This document shows, one piece after another, positions 10,715 through 16,059 of a stretch of DNA of 36,092 nucleotides (the first letter of the stretch is position 1; each line of letters begins with the position of its first letter). This stretch comes from Actinomycetes bacterium. Its GTDB lineage: Bacteria > Actinomycetota > Actinomycetes > Nanopelagicales > Nanopelagicaceae. The translations under genes were made by a program, and so were the position numbers. Location of the stretch: positions 1-36,092 of the forward strand of contig CAKKQM010000083.1 in assembly GCA_919902125.1 (NCBI GenBank), in the 5' to 3' direction. A model generated the notes under the pieces. It did not search any database, was not told the DNA's origin, and was given only the letters and a program-made list of their open reading frames with translations.

Positions 10715-11019
10715 CTGCTATGTGGTGGGGTGTTATCGGTACCAGTGTTGCAGCATTCGCACTGAAGTATCTCGGTCAATCAATTCCGGAACGATATTTA
10801 TCGCACCCGAAAATTCAAAAGATCAACACGCTCATCCCCATTGCACTCTTAAGTGCACTCGTGGCGGTACAAACTTTTACAGAAAAAACGAAATTGGTAA
10901 TTGATCATCGCGCCCTAGGTGTTGGGGTTGCAATTGTTGCATTGCTGCTTCGCGCACCATTCCCTATCGTTGTTCTTTCCGCCGCTGCGTCATCGGCGTT
11001 GCTGTATCACTTTGTTTAA
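10711..11019 (+). CDS. azlD: AzlD family small subunit of branched-chain amino acid exporter
   Basis: This 102-residue protein consists almost entirely of four hydrophobic helices (about residues 4-20, 38-56, 67-83 and 85-101) and has the AzlD-type LGQSIPERYLSHP segment near residues 22-34. It starts within the azlC stop codon (ATGA), so the two subunits are translationally coupled. Its end overlaps the convergent isomerase gene by four bases, leaving no room for a terminator between the opposing units. Confidence 0.85.
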   Translation: MTAMWWGVIGTSVAAFALKYLGQSIPERYLSHPKIQKINTLIPIALLSALVAVQTFTEKTKLVIDHRALGVGVAIVALLLRAPFPIVVLSAAASSALLYHFV

Positions 11020-11900
11020 CCCCAGTGTTGGGCGATTTTCTTTTTCAAGAATTGAGCGCTCTCAACCATCTGCTCCATACCTTCGACGCCATCCTCAATA
11101 CTGATCCAGCCATCAAATCCCACTGCCTTAAGGGTTGAAAAGATCGCGTCGTAATCGTTGAGTCCTTTGCCGATAACACCATGGCGGAAAAACTTCACAT
11201 ATCCAGCGCTACCGCCTTCTTCACGGCGCAGATCTTCGATCGTGCCTTGCGCGAGATAGCGGTCACTGGCGTGCATAGTGACAACACGATGCTTTATTGC
11301 TTCCAATAAATCTAGCGGGTTTTCTCCTGCAGCAATTGCATTGCTGGGGTCAAAATTCACTCCAAACCACGGTGAATCAATGCGACCAACAAGTTCAACG
11401 AAGACATCCATCATTTGCGCAAATTCAGGCTCGGTCCAGAAATCATCTTTGTAATGGTTCTCCAAAGTTAAAGTCACGCCAAGTTTTTCTGCCTCTGGCA
11501 AGCACGCCTCAATGGATTCCACGACATAACCGAGTCCTTGTTCGCGGGTGATCTCCTTGCGACGTTGACCCGAGAGCACGCGGCAGTACTTTGCGCCGAG
11601 TTCAGCACTCATGCGAATCCATGAAATTTCTTTCTCAACTTCACGGCGCCGACCTTCAGGATCGGCAATAGTGAAATCTGGCGAGCAACACATCATCGGA
11701 ATGACCATGCCAGTGGCTTCAACTGCTCTGCGAATCTTCGGCCACTGTGCTGGATCTTTAAGGTCGGCAAAATTGCTATAGAACTCAAGGCCATCGATCT
11801 CGAGAGAGGTTGAGATATCTATCCACTCATAAATACTCATCTCGTTTTCGGCAACGAGTTGATGGATAAATCCTTTGGGGAATGCGGCCAACTTAGGCAT
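11016..11900 (-). CDS. Sugar phosphate isomerase/epimerase-like TIM-barrel protein
   Basis: This 294-residue protein belongs to the xylose-isomerase-like TIM-barrel (AP endonuclease 2) superfamily, whose members isomerise or epimerise keto sugars, inosose or 3-dehydroshikimate using a divalent metal. Candidate metal ligands are Glu147 (LTLENHY), Asp184 (NFDPSN), His210 (MHASD) and Glu269 (ISIEDG), all at the family's expected strand ends. The substrate cannot be read from sequence. It is the last gene of a four-gene minus-strand cassette; its ATG directly follows the SDR stop codon (TAA|ATG), implying tight coupling. It probably interconverts an intermediate produced by the two dehydrogenases. 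Confidence 0.8.
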   Translation of the reverse strand: MPKLAAFPKGFIHQLVAENEMSIYEWIDISTSLEIDGLEFYSNFADLKDPAQWPKIRRAVEATGMVIPMMCCSPDFTIADPEGRRREVEKEISWIRMSAELGAKYCRVLSGQRRKEITREQGLGYVVESIEACLPEAEKLGVTLTLENHYKDDFWTEPEFAQMMDVFVELVGRIDSPWFGVNFDPSNAIAAGENPLDLLEAIKHRVVTMHASDRYLAQGTIEDLRREEGGSAGYVKFFRHGVIGKGLNDYDAIFSTLKAVGFDGWISIEDGVEGMEQMVESAQFLKKKIAQHWG

Positions 11901-12671
11901 TTAGAGTTTCTCCGGGTTTCTTCCAATGATGGAAAATTGTTCCAACTCAAGAATGGTGCCAGTAAATGGGCGGGATTCATCACCGAGCCAATAAATCGCA
12001 GCCTCGCCCATCTGCTGCGATGTTGTCATCGTGCCAAATGGAATTGAAGTGCGATCTAAGCGCTGGTGCCAACCAGGTTCAAGACCCCTTGCCACTTGGT
12101 CACGATCTTCGCGCTCTGTCAGCACCCAACCAGGATTGATCTGATTGATCCGAATTCCGTGGACGCCATGGGCGTTGGCAAGGTTGCGCGTCATGGTCGC
12201 CATCGCGCCTTTGCTGATGCTGTATGCAAGCAGGCTTGACTCCCCCGCATATGCGTTGACGGACCCGATATTGAGTACCGAACCTCGTGCTGCTTTGAGA
12301 TGTTCATAAGCGGCTTGGATAAGAAAAAGTGGCGCTTTGAGATTTACTTGCAATAAGCGTTCAAGTTCACCTGGCGTCAATTCAGCAAGGTTTGATCTGG
12401 CAACAATTGCAGCATTATTTACCAGACCATCGATACGACCAAAGGCGTTGATGGCCGCGGCAACTATCTTTGCTGGCGCGGCATTATCGGCTAAATCTGC
12501 AATGCAAAGTTGGGTCGAACTACCCAGCTTTGCTACAACCGCCTTGCCTTCTTCTTCATTAATTCCATGAACTAGAACTTTGGCGCCTTCTCGAACGGCT
12601 GCTTCAGCGATAGCCCTGCCAATACCTGAAGTTGCACCAGTAACAATGATCGCTTTATCTTTAAGACGCAT
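11901..12671 (-). CDS. SDR family NAD(P)-dependent oxidoreductase
   Basis: This 256-residue classical short-chain dehydrogenase/reductase has the cofactor motif TGATSGIG (11-18), NNAA (85-88), catalytic Ser137 (NIGSVNAY), Tyr150 and Lys154 (YSISK), and the INPGWVLT loop (about 178-185). It probably oxidises or reduces a hydroxyl of a sugar, polyol or sugar acid handled by this cassette; the substrate is unknown. A purine-rich AAGAGG lies about 8 nt before the ATG. The gene lies 14 nt downstream of the zinc-type dehydrogenase and abuts the isomerase gene. The family call is secure, the role inferred from context. Confidence 0.87.
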   Translation of the reverse strand: MRLKDKAIIVTGATSGIGRAIAEAAVREGAKVLVHGINEEEGKAVVAKLGSSTQLCIADLADNAAPAKIVAAAINAFGRIDGLVNNAAIVARSNLAELTPGELERLLQVNLKAPLFLIQAAYEHLKAARGSVLNIGSVNAYAGESSLLAYSISKGAMATMTRNLANAHGVHGIRINQINPGWVLTEREDRDQVARGLEPGWHQRLDRTSIPFGTMTTSQQMGEAAIYWLGDESRPFTGTILELEQFSIIGRNPEKL

Positions 12672-12685
12672 TAACTTGACCTCTT

Positions 12686-13711
12686 TTATTCAGGTTTCAA
12701 GACTGATTTGAGAATTTCGCCCGAGTGCATCTTCTCGAAAGCGCTCTGCCATTCTTGAATCGGCCAGACACCTCCAAGTACTGGTGCGATATCCAATCTG
12801 CCAGTACCCAGCATACGGAGCACGCGCTCCCACATTGGCCAGTTATGGCTAAAACTTCCTTGTAGTGTGACGTTCTTCTGTACCAAAGGATCGAGTGAGA
12901 AATCCAACGGTTGTGGACCCCAACCGACTTTTGCAATCCATCCAGCGGGGCGCACGAGTGAGAGCGCCATTTTTAATGTGGCCGAAACTCCTGCCGCATC
13001 AACAACTCCATCTGCACCAAGTCCATCGACTGCAAGCGCCCACTCAGTGGCATCACCAATGATAATTTCACAGCCATAAGCAAGCCCCGCTTGTAGTCGT
13101 GCGCGGTCGCGCTCTAAGCCAACAACGGCCACCTCAGCCCCGGCAAGACGTGCCATAGCCGCACAGAGAATGCCAATCGGGCCAGGACCTAGTACAATAA
13201 TGCGATCGCCTGGGCGGATATTTCCTGGTGCAATCACTGCGCTATACGCCACTGCACATGGTTCGGTCATCGCTGCGTGTTCAAAAGAAACACTCTCTGG
13301 AATGCGGTGCAAACAACGGGCTGGCACCTTGACAAAGCGTGTCATGCCACCATTGACGCCATAACCGAAACCTTTCCGGTTGGGATCAAGGTTGTAACGG
13401 CCACTGCGCGACATAGGACTAGACATATCTACTTCCGCTGCAGTTTCGCTTACAACACGATCGCCTTGGGCCCAAGATTTGACGTTCTTACCCAGTTCAA
13501 CAATGTGGCCGCCAAATTCGTGGCCAAGGACCACGGGGTAGTTCACTGGCCAACTCTGGCTACCGCTCCATTGATGTAGATCACTTCCGCAGACGCTGAC
13601 TGCTTCCACCTGCATAATGACATCATCGTCACCCGCTACTGGGCGATCAACCTCACGCAATTCAACGCTATGCGGCGTGGATGAATAGTTAACGACACCG
13701 ATTGATCCCAT
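12686..13711 (-). CDS. Zinc-type medium-chain dehydrogenase (Tdh/sorbitol dehydrogenase-like) lacking the structural zinc site
   Basis: This 341-residue medium-chain dehydrogenase has catalytic zinc ligands Cys41 (CGSDLHQW), His64-Glu65 (GHEFGG) and Glu150 (TEPCAVAY), and a Rossmann motif GPGPIGI (175-181). Relatives oxidise polyols, threonine or sugar alcohols with NAD(P). The lobe that normally carries four structural-zinc cysteines (about residues 88-115) contains none, reading SETAAEVDMSSPMSRSGRYN instead, so this copy probably folds without that zinc. The ATG directly follows the TAA of the upstream HUMPS gene (TAA|ATG). Substrate is unknown; the context suggests carbohydrate or polyol catabolism. 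Confidence 0.85.
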   Translation of the reverse strand: MGSIGVVNYSSTPHSVELREVDRPVAGDDDVIMQVEAVSVCGSDLHQWSGSQSWPVNYPVVLGHEFGGHIVELGKNVKSWAQGDRVVSETAAEVDMSSPMSRSGRYNLDPNRKGFGYGVNGGMTRFVKVPARCLHRIPESVSFEHAAMTEPCAVAYSAVIAPGNIRPGDRIIVLGPGPIGILCAAMARLAGAEVAVVGLERDRARLQAGLAYGCEIIIGDATEWALAVDGLGADGVVDAAGVSATLKMALSLVRPAGWIAKVGWGPQPLDFSLDPLVQKNVTLQGSFSHNWPMWERVLRMLGTGRLDIAPVLGGVWPIQEWQSAFEKMHSGEILKSVLKPE

Positions 13712-14422
13712 TTACTTCTCACCTTTCACGGGTACATCGCCAAATCCATGAACACTTTCGCAAATCTTTCGTAGTACTTCTTCAACATTGCCCGCACCTG
13801 CGCTAAAGGAATCAGCGTCGATAGCAAGAGGAGCTCCAATGACAACTAGAGGGGCGCCATAAGCAGGAGTTTGAATCGCTTGCTCGAGGGAGAGACCCCC
13901 AACTGCTTGCACTGGCACACGGACCGCGTCGACCACTTCACGCAATTGATCGAGCGGATTTGGTGCACGTTCTCCACGCGCTGCAATTCCACGACGCTCG
14001 TCATATCCAATGTGGTGAATCACCATATCGCAACCTAATTCTTCGAGTTCGCGCGCACCTTGGATCATGTCAAGACAACCTAAATTATCTCCCATAACAA
14101 ATACACCGTAATCTTTTCCAGCAGCAACAACGCATTTAATTGTCTCTGGATGCGAACGCGCCATCACAACAACATGGGTTGCGCCAGCTTTGGCCATCAT
14201 CTCGGCTTCAAGATACCCACCATCCATCGTCTTTAAATCAGCGACGATTGGCACTCCGGGAAATTCTGCACGGAGTGCACGGACGCCATGCAGTCCTTCA
14301 GCAAGAATGAAGGGAGTACCTGCCTCAAGCCAATCAACACCAGCTCGCATGGCGGTATGGGCCATCTCCATTGCTTCTTTGATATCTGTGAGATCTAGAG
14401 AGACTTGAACAATTGGTTTCAT
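13712..14422 (-). CDS. HUMPS-family decarboxylase/aldolase (hexulose-6-phosphate synthase / 3-keto-gulonate-6-phosphate decarboxylase-like)
   Basis: This 236-residue protein belongs to the orotidine-phosphate-decarboxylase suprafamily. It has EAGTP (33-37), the DLKTMDGG active-site strand (62-69) with Asp62, Lys64 and Asp67, and VIHHIGYDERR (134-144). It ends with the phosphate-binding VQAVGGLS (171-178) and VVIGAPL (193-199) loops. Members either condense formaldehyde with ribulose-5-phosphate or decarboxylate 3-keto-L-gulonate-6-phosphate; I cannot say which applies. No phosphohexulose isomerase or sugar kinase lies nearby. The ORF track starts at 14458, but the ATG at 14422 fits the family N-terminus and lies 7 nt after TAGGAT, a leaderless -10. 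It leads the four-gene cassette. Confidence 0.8.
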   Translation of the reverse strand: MKPIVQVSLDLTDIKEAMEMAHTAMRAGVDWLEAGTPFILAEGLHGVRALRAEFPGVPIVADLKTMDGGYLEAEMMAKAGATHVVVMARSHPETIKCVVAAGKDYGVFVMGDNLGCLDMIQGARELEELGCDMVIHHIGYDERRGIAARGERAPNPLDQLREVVDAVRVPVQAVGGLSLEQAIQTPAYGAPLVVIGAPLAIDADSFSAGAGNVEEVLRKICESVHGFGDVPVKGEK

Positions 14423-14429
14423 GCGTGGA

Positions 14430-14435
14430 ATCCTA
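14430..14435 (-). promoter_or_regulatory. -10 element of the sugar-cassette promoter
   Basis: TAGGAT lies 7 nt before the ATG at 14422 and decides that start. It would drive the HUMPS, dehydrogenase, SDR and isomerase genes as one leaderless operon. Confidence 0.5.
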
Positions 14436-14509
14436 CTTGCCACAGTCCCAAATTGCATTCCGTTTACGTGCCACTCTGTATAGACTCATTGCACTGATTG
14501 CTCGCGCTG

Positions 14510-15076
14510 TTAACTAATCTTTTGAATACCACCTTGCACCATGGCAACAGCAAGAGCCCGCTCTGGCCTGGGGTCGAATATTTCGACTTGCATGTCAGTG
14601 CCTTTAAGCCCGACATAAACATTTTTCGGATCTCGTGAATCATAGTAAATAGCATTGCCATCTGTATTAATAAGACCCACTCCATTGGGTTGCAATCCAG
14701 CTTTTTGAGTCAATGCGAAAGCATCTGGAGAAGCAAAGGTACCGACCTCATAGTAAGTCTCGCTTGCAGCAGTCGATCCTGTGCTAGCAGAGGCGTAGAT
14801 GACGCGGAGAGAAATTCCATCTGCGAGAGAGGTATCCAGGAGATACTTGGCTCCAGCCTCAGGCCCTAGCCAATAGACGGTTAGATTTTTGGCAGCAACC
14901 ATATTGCGAAGATCTTTCTCATTAACGGCAAGACGGCCACTCATAATGAAGGCAGCACTGTCAACGCTCTTCTGTTTCATACCAAGTACCTGTCCTGCAC
15001 CGAAGGCCAAAGTTGAAAAGACGATGGCAGTAATGAGATATGGAATGAAGCGTCTCATTCTTTTTTTTAAGATCAA
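14510..15076 (-). CDS. Unknown membrane-anchored protein
   Basis: I do not recognise this 188-residue protein. A basic N-terminus (KKRMRRF) and a hydrophobic segment (about residues 10-32) form a signal anchor or uncleaved signal peptide, so the remaining domain is probably extracytoplasmic. That domain has a predicted alpha/beta character with VYWLGPEAGAKYLLDTS and, near the end, YYDSRDPKNVYVGLKGTDMQVEIFDP; no cysteines or catalytic motif stand out. The start is TTG at 15076, because AGGGAG sits 5 nt upstream; the internal ATG (Met7) has no ribosome site. It is divergent from a LuxR-type regulator, with a 272-nt gap holding repeated operator-like motifs. Confidence 0.7.
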   Translation of the reverse strand: MILKKRMRRFIPYLITAIVFSTLAFGAGQVLGMKQKSVDSAAFIMSGRLAVNEKDLRNMVAAKNLTVYWLGPEAGAKYLLDTSLADGISLRVIYASASTGSTAASETYYEVGTFASPDAFALTQKAGLQPNGVGLINTDGNAIYYDSRDPKNVYVGLKGTDMQVEIFDPRPERALAVAMVQGGIQKIS

Positions 15077-15138: not shown

Positions 15139-15159
15139 TGATCGGTCATTGCTTGGTCA
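15139..15159. promoter_or_regulatory. Paired operator-like repeats, proximal to the unknown membrane protein
   Basis: TGATCGGTCA (15139-15148) and TGCTTGGTCA (15150-15159) are related 10-mers spaced 11 bp, one helical turn. They match the second pair at 15242-15272. They probably bind the adjacent LuxR-type regulator; this is inferred from spacing and position. Confidence 0.45.
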
Positions 15160-15241
15160 TACCTTTACTCACTAGTAGTTACTTATTGCACACTCAGTCA
15201 TACAAGGTGTTTATCTTCAAGACAGATTAAGGGTAAAAACG

Positions 15242-15272
15242 TGACTGGTCAGTGCTATTGATGACTGGATCA
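15242..15272. promoter_or_regulatory. Paired operator-like repeats, proximal to the LuxR gene
   Basis: TGACTGGTCA (15242-15251) and TGACTGGATCA (15262-15272) start 20 bp apart, about two helical turns. They lie about 77-107 bp before the LuxR start codon and share the TGAyyGGTCA core with the pair at 15139-15159. Confidence 0.45.
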
Positions 15273-15348
15273 ATGTCAGAACTGAGACGTACCCTTTCTC
15301 AATTCGCTCTCAATAATTAGCAAAAGAGATCAGACGGAGGGAGAAACT

Positions 15349-16059
15349 TTGAATCGTTCTCAACGAATGCAGCGGCTTCTCGCTTGGCTCTCATTCATGC
15401 CACCATTGGAGAACGTCGCCAGATCCCTAGTTCTAGATCACCTCTCCTCGTTTAATCCTATTAAATCAATGATCTGGCACCTCGATAAGAGTGACTCACT
15501 CATATTGTTGGCCAGCTATGGAGACCAAGAGACACCGATAGGAAAATCTTTCGCAGGATCAATATGGCGAACTGGTTCAAAAGCGGCCCCTTTTGCCTTA
15601 CATACAGTTTCAGGAGATCCAATAATCTGGTCTGAAGGGAACACGCAGGTTGTGATCAACTTATACGCACAGAATCTGCTGATTGGATTCTTGTCGTTAA
15701 GTTTTGCAGAACCCGTCGGCAACGTGGAAGATTTTAATTCTGACGCTGAAGAATTTTCTTGGCAAATTTCACTGTACTTAGCACTCCGGTTCCATGGATT
15801 CTTAGGACTAGACGACAGGGCATCAATGTCTAATGGGGCACCATTAACAAATACGGTAAATAAAAGGATCGAGTTAACAACTAGGCAAGTTTCGATCCTA
15901 TCAAGAGTCGCAGCAAAGAAAACAAACCATGAGATTGCCAAAGAACTTGGCTATAGTGTTAGCACCGTTCGTCATGAGACGATGCGAATTTTTGAATCAC
16001 TTGGTGTTTCGGACCGAGTCACAGCTGCATCCGAAGGGCACAGATTAGGACTGCTTTAA
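15349..16059 (+). CDS. LuxR-family (GerE-type HTH) transcriptional regulator
   Basis: This 236-residue regulator has a C-terminal LuxR/GerE helix-turn-helix at about residues 172-232 (LTTRQVSILSRVAAKKTNHEIAKELGYS, then STVRHETMRIFESLGVSDR). Its N-terminal region (about 1-150) has GAF-like alternating beta strands and helices, suggesting a small-molecule or redox sensor, but no specific ligand motif is visible. No receiver-domain phosphorylation site is seen. The start is TTG at 15349, supported by GGAGG at about 7 nt. It lies divergent from the unknown membrane protein, which is the most likely target besides itself. It could also influence the sugar cassette. Confidence 0.82.
   Translation: MNRSQRMQRLLAWLSFMPPLENVARSLVLDHLSSFNPIKSMIWHLDKSDSLILLASYGDQETPIGKSFAGSIWRTGSKAAPFALHTVSGDPIIWSEGNTQVVINLYAQNLLIGFLSLSFAEPVGNVEDFNSDAEEFSWQISLYLALRFHGFLGLDDRASMSNGAPLTNTVNKRIELTTRQVSILSRVAAKKTNHEIAKELGYSVSTVRHETMRIFESLGVSDRVTAASEGHRLGLL

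Follow-up and report, generated by a model that had tools for sequence, protein, structure and literature searches.

A palindromic site conserved upstream of luxR-type genes of Nanopelagicaceae and its possible role in a divergent intergenic gap

The intergenic gap that separates a luxR-type regulator gene from a divergent gene of a predicted exported protein (hereafter MEM) in the window, i.e., in the whole analysed stretch of 36,092 nucleotides, carries a palindrome, TGACYRGTCA, which recurs at a fixed distance from a -10 element upstream of orthologous luxR genes in related genomes. We suppose that the gap probably holds operators of the adjacent LuxR/GerE regulator, which would activate its own gene and perhaps keep MEM under the same control. 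The interpretation given in the initial annotation is largely supported: the kind of circuit is familiar, and the DNA site apparently has not been described before in this group; the literature searched yielded no precedent for the exact palindrome in this group and no account of this operator. The source genome is a 1.63-Mb draft, and its closest relatives are records titled as Nanopelagicaceae-type freshwater actinobacteria.

Sites in the gap

If MEM starts with TTG at 15076 and luxR with TTG at 15349, the gap, flanked by MEM on the minus strand and luxR on the plus strand, is 272 bp long. The features are as follows.

11016..14458, minus strand: four-gene operon encoding a sugar-isomerase-like TIM barrel, an SDR, a zinc alcohol dehydrogenase and an OMPdecase/HUMPS family protein (Pfam, synteny)
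14510..15076, minus strand: MEM, gene of a predicted single-anchor exported protein from a multicopy lineage family, no Pfam match
15110-15105, minus strand: candidate MEM -10 TAAGTT, 39 nt after TGACCAAGCA, read from sequence
15115-15110, minus strand: candidate MEM -10 TACCTT, read from sequence
15139..15148, unstranded: putative MEM-side operator TGATCGGTCA (TGACCGATCA on the minus strand), second-best matrix match in the window
15150..15159, unstranded: weak partner TGCTTGGTCA, 11 bp from the 15139 site, matrix rank 24
15242..15251, unstranded: putative primary operator TGACTGGTCA with the core palindrome TGACYRGTCA, best matrix match in the 36-kb window
15262..15272, unstranded: weak secondary site TGACTGGATCA, 20 bp downstream of the 15242 site, matrix rank 65
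15290..15295, plus strand: putative luxR -10 element TACCCT, separated from the primary site by exactly 38 nt
15349..16059, plus strand: luxR-type regulator gene, 236 aa, TTG start, with a putative GAF/autoinducer-binding-like N-terminal domain and a GerE HTH (Pfam, AlphaFold2, Foldseek)

All four motif strings are read on the plus strand within the gap, at 15139, 15150, 15242 and 15262, the first pair being 11 bp and the second 20 bp apart, exactly as the initial annotation had it. The repeats are real, but the directional form TGAyyGGTCA ascribed to them was wrong, the core being the symmetric TGACYRGTCA. With up to two mismatches, TGAYYGGTCA gave 84 matches in the window versus 100 expected, and this loose pattern, showing no enrichment, was rejected as the motif. 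For scoring, a symmetric matrix was derived from 18 sites that precede LuxR orthologues in other genomes of the Nanopelagicaceae type, with the window excluded. Among the 36,075 window positions the sites at 15242, 15139, 15150 and 15262 ranked 1st, 2nd, 24th and 65th, respectively; by these ranks the four related motifs are of unequal grade (15242 strong, 15139 good, 15150 and 15262 weak), and each pair consists of one strong or good site and one weak site. Matches of the 15139 grade are expected in the gap 0.016 times by the matrix. Its score, the second best in the gap, was reached in none of 1000 dinucleotide shuffles of the gap, and in 500 further shuffles the third-best score was never reached and the fourth-best was equalled in 0.2%.

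Conservation and geometry of the luxR promoter

LuxR orthologues were collected from 8 of the 21 genomes of the genus, from 46 of the 201 genomes of the family and from 45 loci of a named genome collection. The palindrome TGACNNGTCA (TGACYRGTCA) was found upstream of the gene in 20 of 50 non-redundant orthologue regions, with a mean of 0.2 in shuffled sequences, and the next best gapped palindrome of the same shape in 5 of 50; sequences within one clade are related, so that the 20 regions should not be counted as that many independent events; those genomes that bear the site and have a handle come from at least two genera of the family. Of 21 sites in front of LuxR orthologues, 11 are followed by a TANNNT hexamer at exactly 38 nt and two more at 39 nt, the other spacings observed between 30 and 45 nt occurring once each, and the combination of the palindrome, 38 nt and TANNNT never appeared in shuffled sets. 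Since the 90-nt promoter stretches are otherwise only about 30-45% identical between clades, both the motif and the spacing should be under selection. Lack of conservation in relatives had been named in advance as a result that would refute the proposal; on the luxR side relatives keep both the palindrome and the 38 nt that separate it from the -10 element. The MEM-side pair is beyond such footprinting, because MEM stands next to luxR in the window's genome only. Three congeners that possess a LuxR orthologue (G008, G009 and G013) have no good site upstream of it, which means that autoregulation of luxR is not universal.

Chance similarity, or membership of the repeats in RNA hairpins, is hardly a credible explanation. 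The motifs are short and the loose directional pattern is not enriched in the window; however, the shuffles argue against chance, no terminator-like site was found in the gap, and the fixed spacing conserved across genomes already contradicts such an explanation.

The centre of the primary site is located 43 nt upstream of the -10 element TACCCT. With a transcription start placed 7 nt beyond this hexamer, it would be at about -55, and the partner 20 bp away (15262) would be centred near -35 and overlap the position of the -35 box. A sigma-70 -35/-10 pair was not found in the gap, and no -35 consensus is recognisable there. In one relative (L066), TGACTGGTGC occupies exactly the same +20 offset from the primary site; 11-bp site pairs recur in the luxR promoters of relatives L108, L110, L113 and L118. 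Arrays with sites at -26, -15, 0 and +10, in which 11 bp separate the first two, also occur in relatives other than L066. This geometry would suit an activator that binds along one side of the DNA helix, and, with the start point placed as above, dyad sites on one face with the proximal one overlapping -35 are what is found in promoters of the NarL/DosR kind. The helically phased operator of a dimeric regulator, as proposed initially, gains support from the conservation of the palindrome and of the 38-nt spacing before the -10 element.

Based on this arrangement, the following course of events may be envisaged. A dimer of the regulator would bind the strong site at 15242-15251 (centre at about -55) and help another one onto the weak site at 15262-15272, which lies on the same helical face two turns further on and overlaps the missing -35; there the regulator would hold RNA polymerase on the -10 element TACCCT at 15290, resulting in self-activation of luxR. 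The trigger could be the gain or loss of a signal by the GAF-like N-terminal domain. Judging from the promoter, autoregulation of luxR is very likely. Negative autoregulation by the same protein seems quite improbable: many solo LuxR-type proteins can repress, and a protein on the secondary site would lie over the -35 region, but the conserved primary site lies well upstream at a fixed distance from the -10 element, and the absence of a recognisable -35 box is what is expected of activator-dependent promoters.

The regulator and its sites elsewhere

The GerE HTH at the C terminus of the LuxR-type protein was identified by Pfam (PF00196, residues 176-227, 33.7 bits with a cut-off of 23.5, E=2.8e-8), which places the protein in this family. 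In the AlphaFold2 model (pLDDT 87) the N-terminal 150 residues are confidently predicted as an alpha/beta domain, which may be GAF/autoinducer-binding-like and is joined to the HTH by a disordered linker; in Foldseek searches this predicted fold matched LasR, RhlR, SdiA and GAF domains with low TM scores. The N-terminal part has no Pfam match, the autoinducer-binding family included, and residues 1-160 gave no Pfam or NCBIfam match to a receiver domain, as would be found in a two-component response regulator. Neither was a luxI-type synthase, the usual companion of a quorum-sensing LuxR, recognised among the neighbouring proteins scanned, and no plasmid-borne relatives of the regulator were found. 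At locus L127 (5429-8959), two proteins come after a LuxR orthologue: an ECF sigma-like one of 471 aa, which has a long extension, and one of 705 aa without a Pfam match.

The closest described arrangement is that of DevR/DosR of Mycobacterium, a member of the NarL subfamily which also has a GerE-type HTH, and whose promoters combine packed sites, the proximal one overlapping -35, with cooperative filling of weak secondary sites and positive autoregulation (PMC3029386). The strong upstream site and the weak proximal site of the luxR promoter resemble this layout. DevR, however, works as a response regulator that is phosphorylated and governs a large regulon, whereas the regulator of the window has a predicted GAF-like N-terminal domain, a different motif (TGACYRGTCA) and essentially one locus with a site in the genome. 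Among the best sequence matches of its HTH in solved structures are VraR/LiaR; these are receiver-domain proteins of two-component systems, unlike the protein of the window, which lacks that domain. LiaR is known to use primary and secondary sites, and its relatives form tetramers (PMC7191749).

As to solo LuxR proteins and LuxR/RhlR/SdiA, the domain order and the predicted fold are similar (a putative ligand-binding-like N-terminal domain followed by GerE, with LasR, RhlR and SdiA as the best Foldseek matches). Local autoregulation is typical of solo and quorum-sensing LuxR regulators. The differences from them are the lack of a Pfam autoinducer-binding match and of a luxI-type gene among the scanned neighbours, and also the operator, which has a 10-bp core with a 2-bp centre and is shorter than the lux box of roughly 20 bp.

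The genome-wide statements that follow are based on pattern searches. A search for the motif near other promoters, suggested in the initial annotation, returned the full pattern TGACNNGTCA-N37..39-TANNNT only once in the whole genome, at the luxR promoter of the window. The exact palindrome has two copies in the genome, the other being TGACCGGTCA at C70:51, within an open reading frame; five other genomic TGATCGGTCA sites are likewise each within an open reading frame, and TGATTGGTCA has ten matches. A broad regulon in the organism's own genome was also considered and rejected, as the motif followed by N38 and TANNNT, with one mismatch allowed, gave 9 matches versus 14 in the control. Because the full pattern is single and the other examined sites are intragenic, the regulator should be local rather than global in this organism.

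The palindrome, with one mismatch in G009, also precedes an orphan receiver-domain gene in five congeners (L218-L222 in G013, G008, G009, G019 and G020). The distance to the -10 TANNNT is 38 nt in G008 and G013 and 48-49 nt (counted by eye from the sequences) in G009, G019 and G020, the difference being approximately one helical turn. This gene, absent from the window's genome, is a probable second member of the regulon in congeners. In a genome of another genus of the family (G219), the palindrome and a -10 element were observed upstream of small membrane-protein genes at L182 and L199, one of these loci having a second GACCAGTCA nearby.

The motif travels with luxR while the flanking genes vary between groups, and on this ground the LuxR-type protein is very probably what binds the palindrome. 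Another regulator, be it an unrelated repressor that acts as a dimer or a paralogue of LuxR sharing its recognition helix, might instead bind the palindrome and control luxR, which we consider unlikely. Several relatives have multiple LuxR-type proteins, whose paralogues share the recognition helix (in part a selection effect, since the named loci were retrieved with the conserved peptide ST[IV]RHETM), and in G019, whose genome is 84% complete, the site at the receiver gene is present and a close LuxR orthologue was not found. Against this, the motif tracks luxR across differing neighbourhoods, the single site of the full pattern in the organism's own genome, upstream of luxR, fits autoregulation, and the position of the site together with the missing -35 fits activation rather than repression.

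The exported-protein gene beside luxR

In relatives the neighbourhood of the orthologous luxR is azlC-azlD-luxR-grx-dapB, without MEM. In G009, G008 and the window, the four-gene operon is located between azlD and luxR, a place from which it is absent in other genomes; it is divergent from luxR with no MEM between them in G009 and G008, and directly downstream of MEM in the window. A conserved luxR/MEM divergent pair was rejected, because MEM adjoins luxR in the window's genome only; judging by gene order, MEM is a lineage-specific arrival beside luxR. Its homologues were found in 10 of 60 genomes, in up to 10 copies. Roughly half of the congeners possess this unnamed family of exported proteins (L041 among its loci), whose genes are frequently arranged in tandem and which has no Pfam match. 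In G012 (L080 3659-5187) a member is divergent to a gene of a GerE-type response regulator, and in G002 (L081 1287-2858) to a LuxR/GerE-type gene encoding a 343-aa protein; pairing of this family with GerE regulators may recur.

Via the 11-bp pair, MEM would most likely come under the regulator that acts on luxR, and the four-gene operon behind it could follow by read-through; from the position of the sites, we lean slightly towards such control of MEM. It is indicated by the 15139 site, the second best in the window, by the location of the 15139/15150 pair, which precedes the MEM start by 63-83 bp, and by the 11-bp pairing in relatives. Conversely, the pair on the luxR side alone may be functional, with the MEM-side pair being accidental or vestigial and MEM controlled otherwise, a reading that we hold possible though doubtful. 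It draws on the presence of MEM beside luxR in the window's genome only and on the scarcity of the motif in MEM-family promoters elsewhere: 52 upstream regions contain 6 motifs versus about 4 expected, i.e., the chance level, for which reason the motif was rejected as a promoter feature of the family, and no similar pair was found upstream of the paralogue in the same genome (77% identity, G000:C8:9627-10235, L061 9627-10235). The geometry differs as well, the most promoter-like MEM -10, TACCTT, being 23 and 34 nt from the sites instead of 38. On the other side, a match ranking second of 36,075 positions falls in the very same gap (0.016 expected), the 15150 site is above chance too, 11-bp pairs exist in the luxR promoters of relatives, and 15139, which precedes the primary site by 103 bp, is far for a role at luxR only.

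A more far-reaching and rather less probable reading is that small, often rewired circuits of streamlined freshwater actinobacteria are run by a solo LuxR specific to this lineage, which would combine a GAF-like sensor with an operator code of its own (TGACYRGTCA at 38 nt from a -10 element, or one helical turn further away). Its targets would be luxR itself, in some species also the orphan receiver gene, and in the present genome the exported-protein gene newly inserted beside luxR. Nanopelagicaceae are abundant and mostly uncultured, and their regulation is almost uncharacterised. The conserved site offers a concrete candidate operator, promoter geometry and regulator, with which members of the regulon could be predicted in different genomes and, with no need for cultures, tested in vitro, and the gap itself would represent a small case of regulatory rewiring, in which a gene arrived between a regulator and its neighbour.
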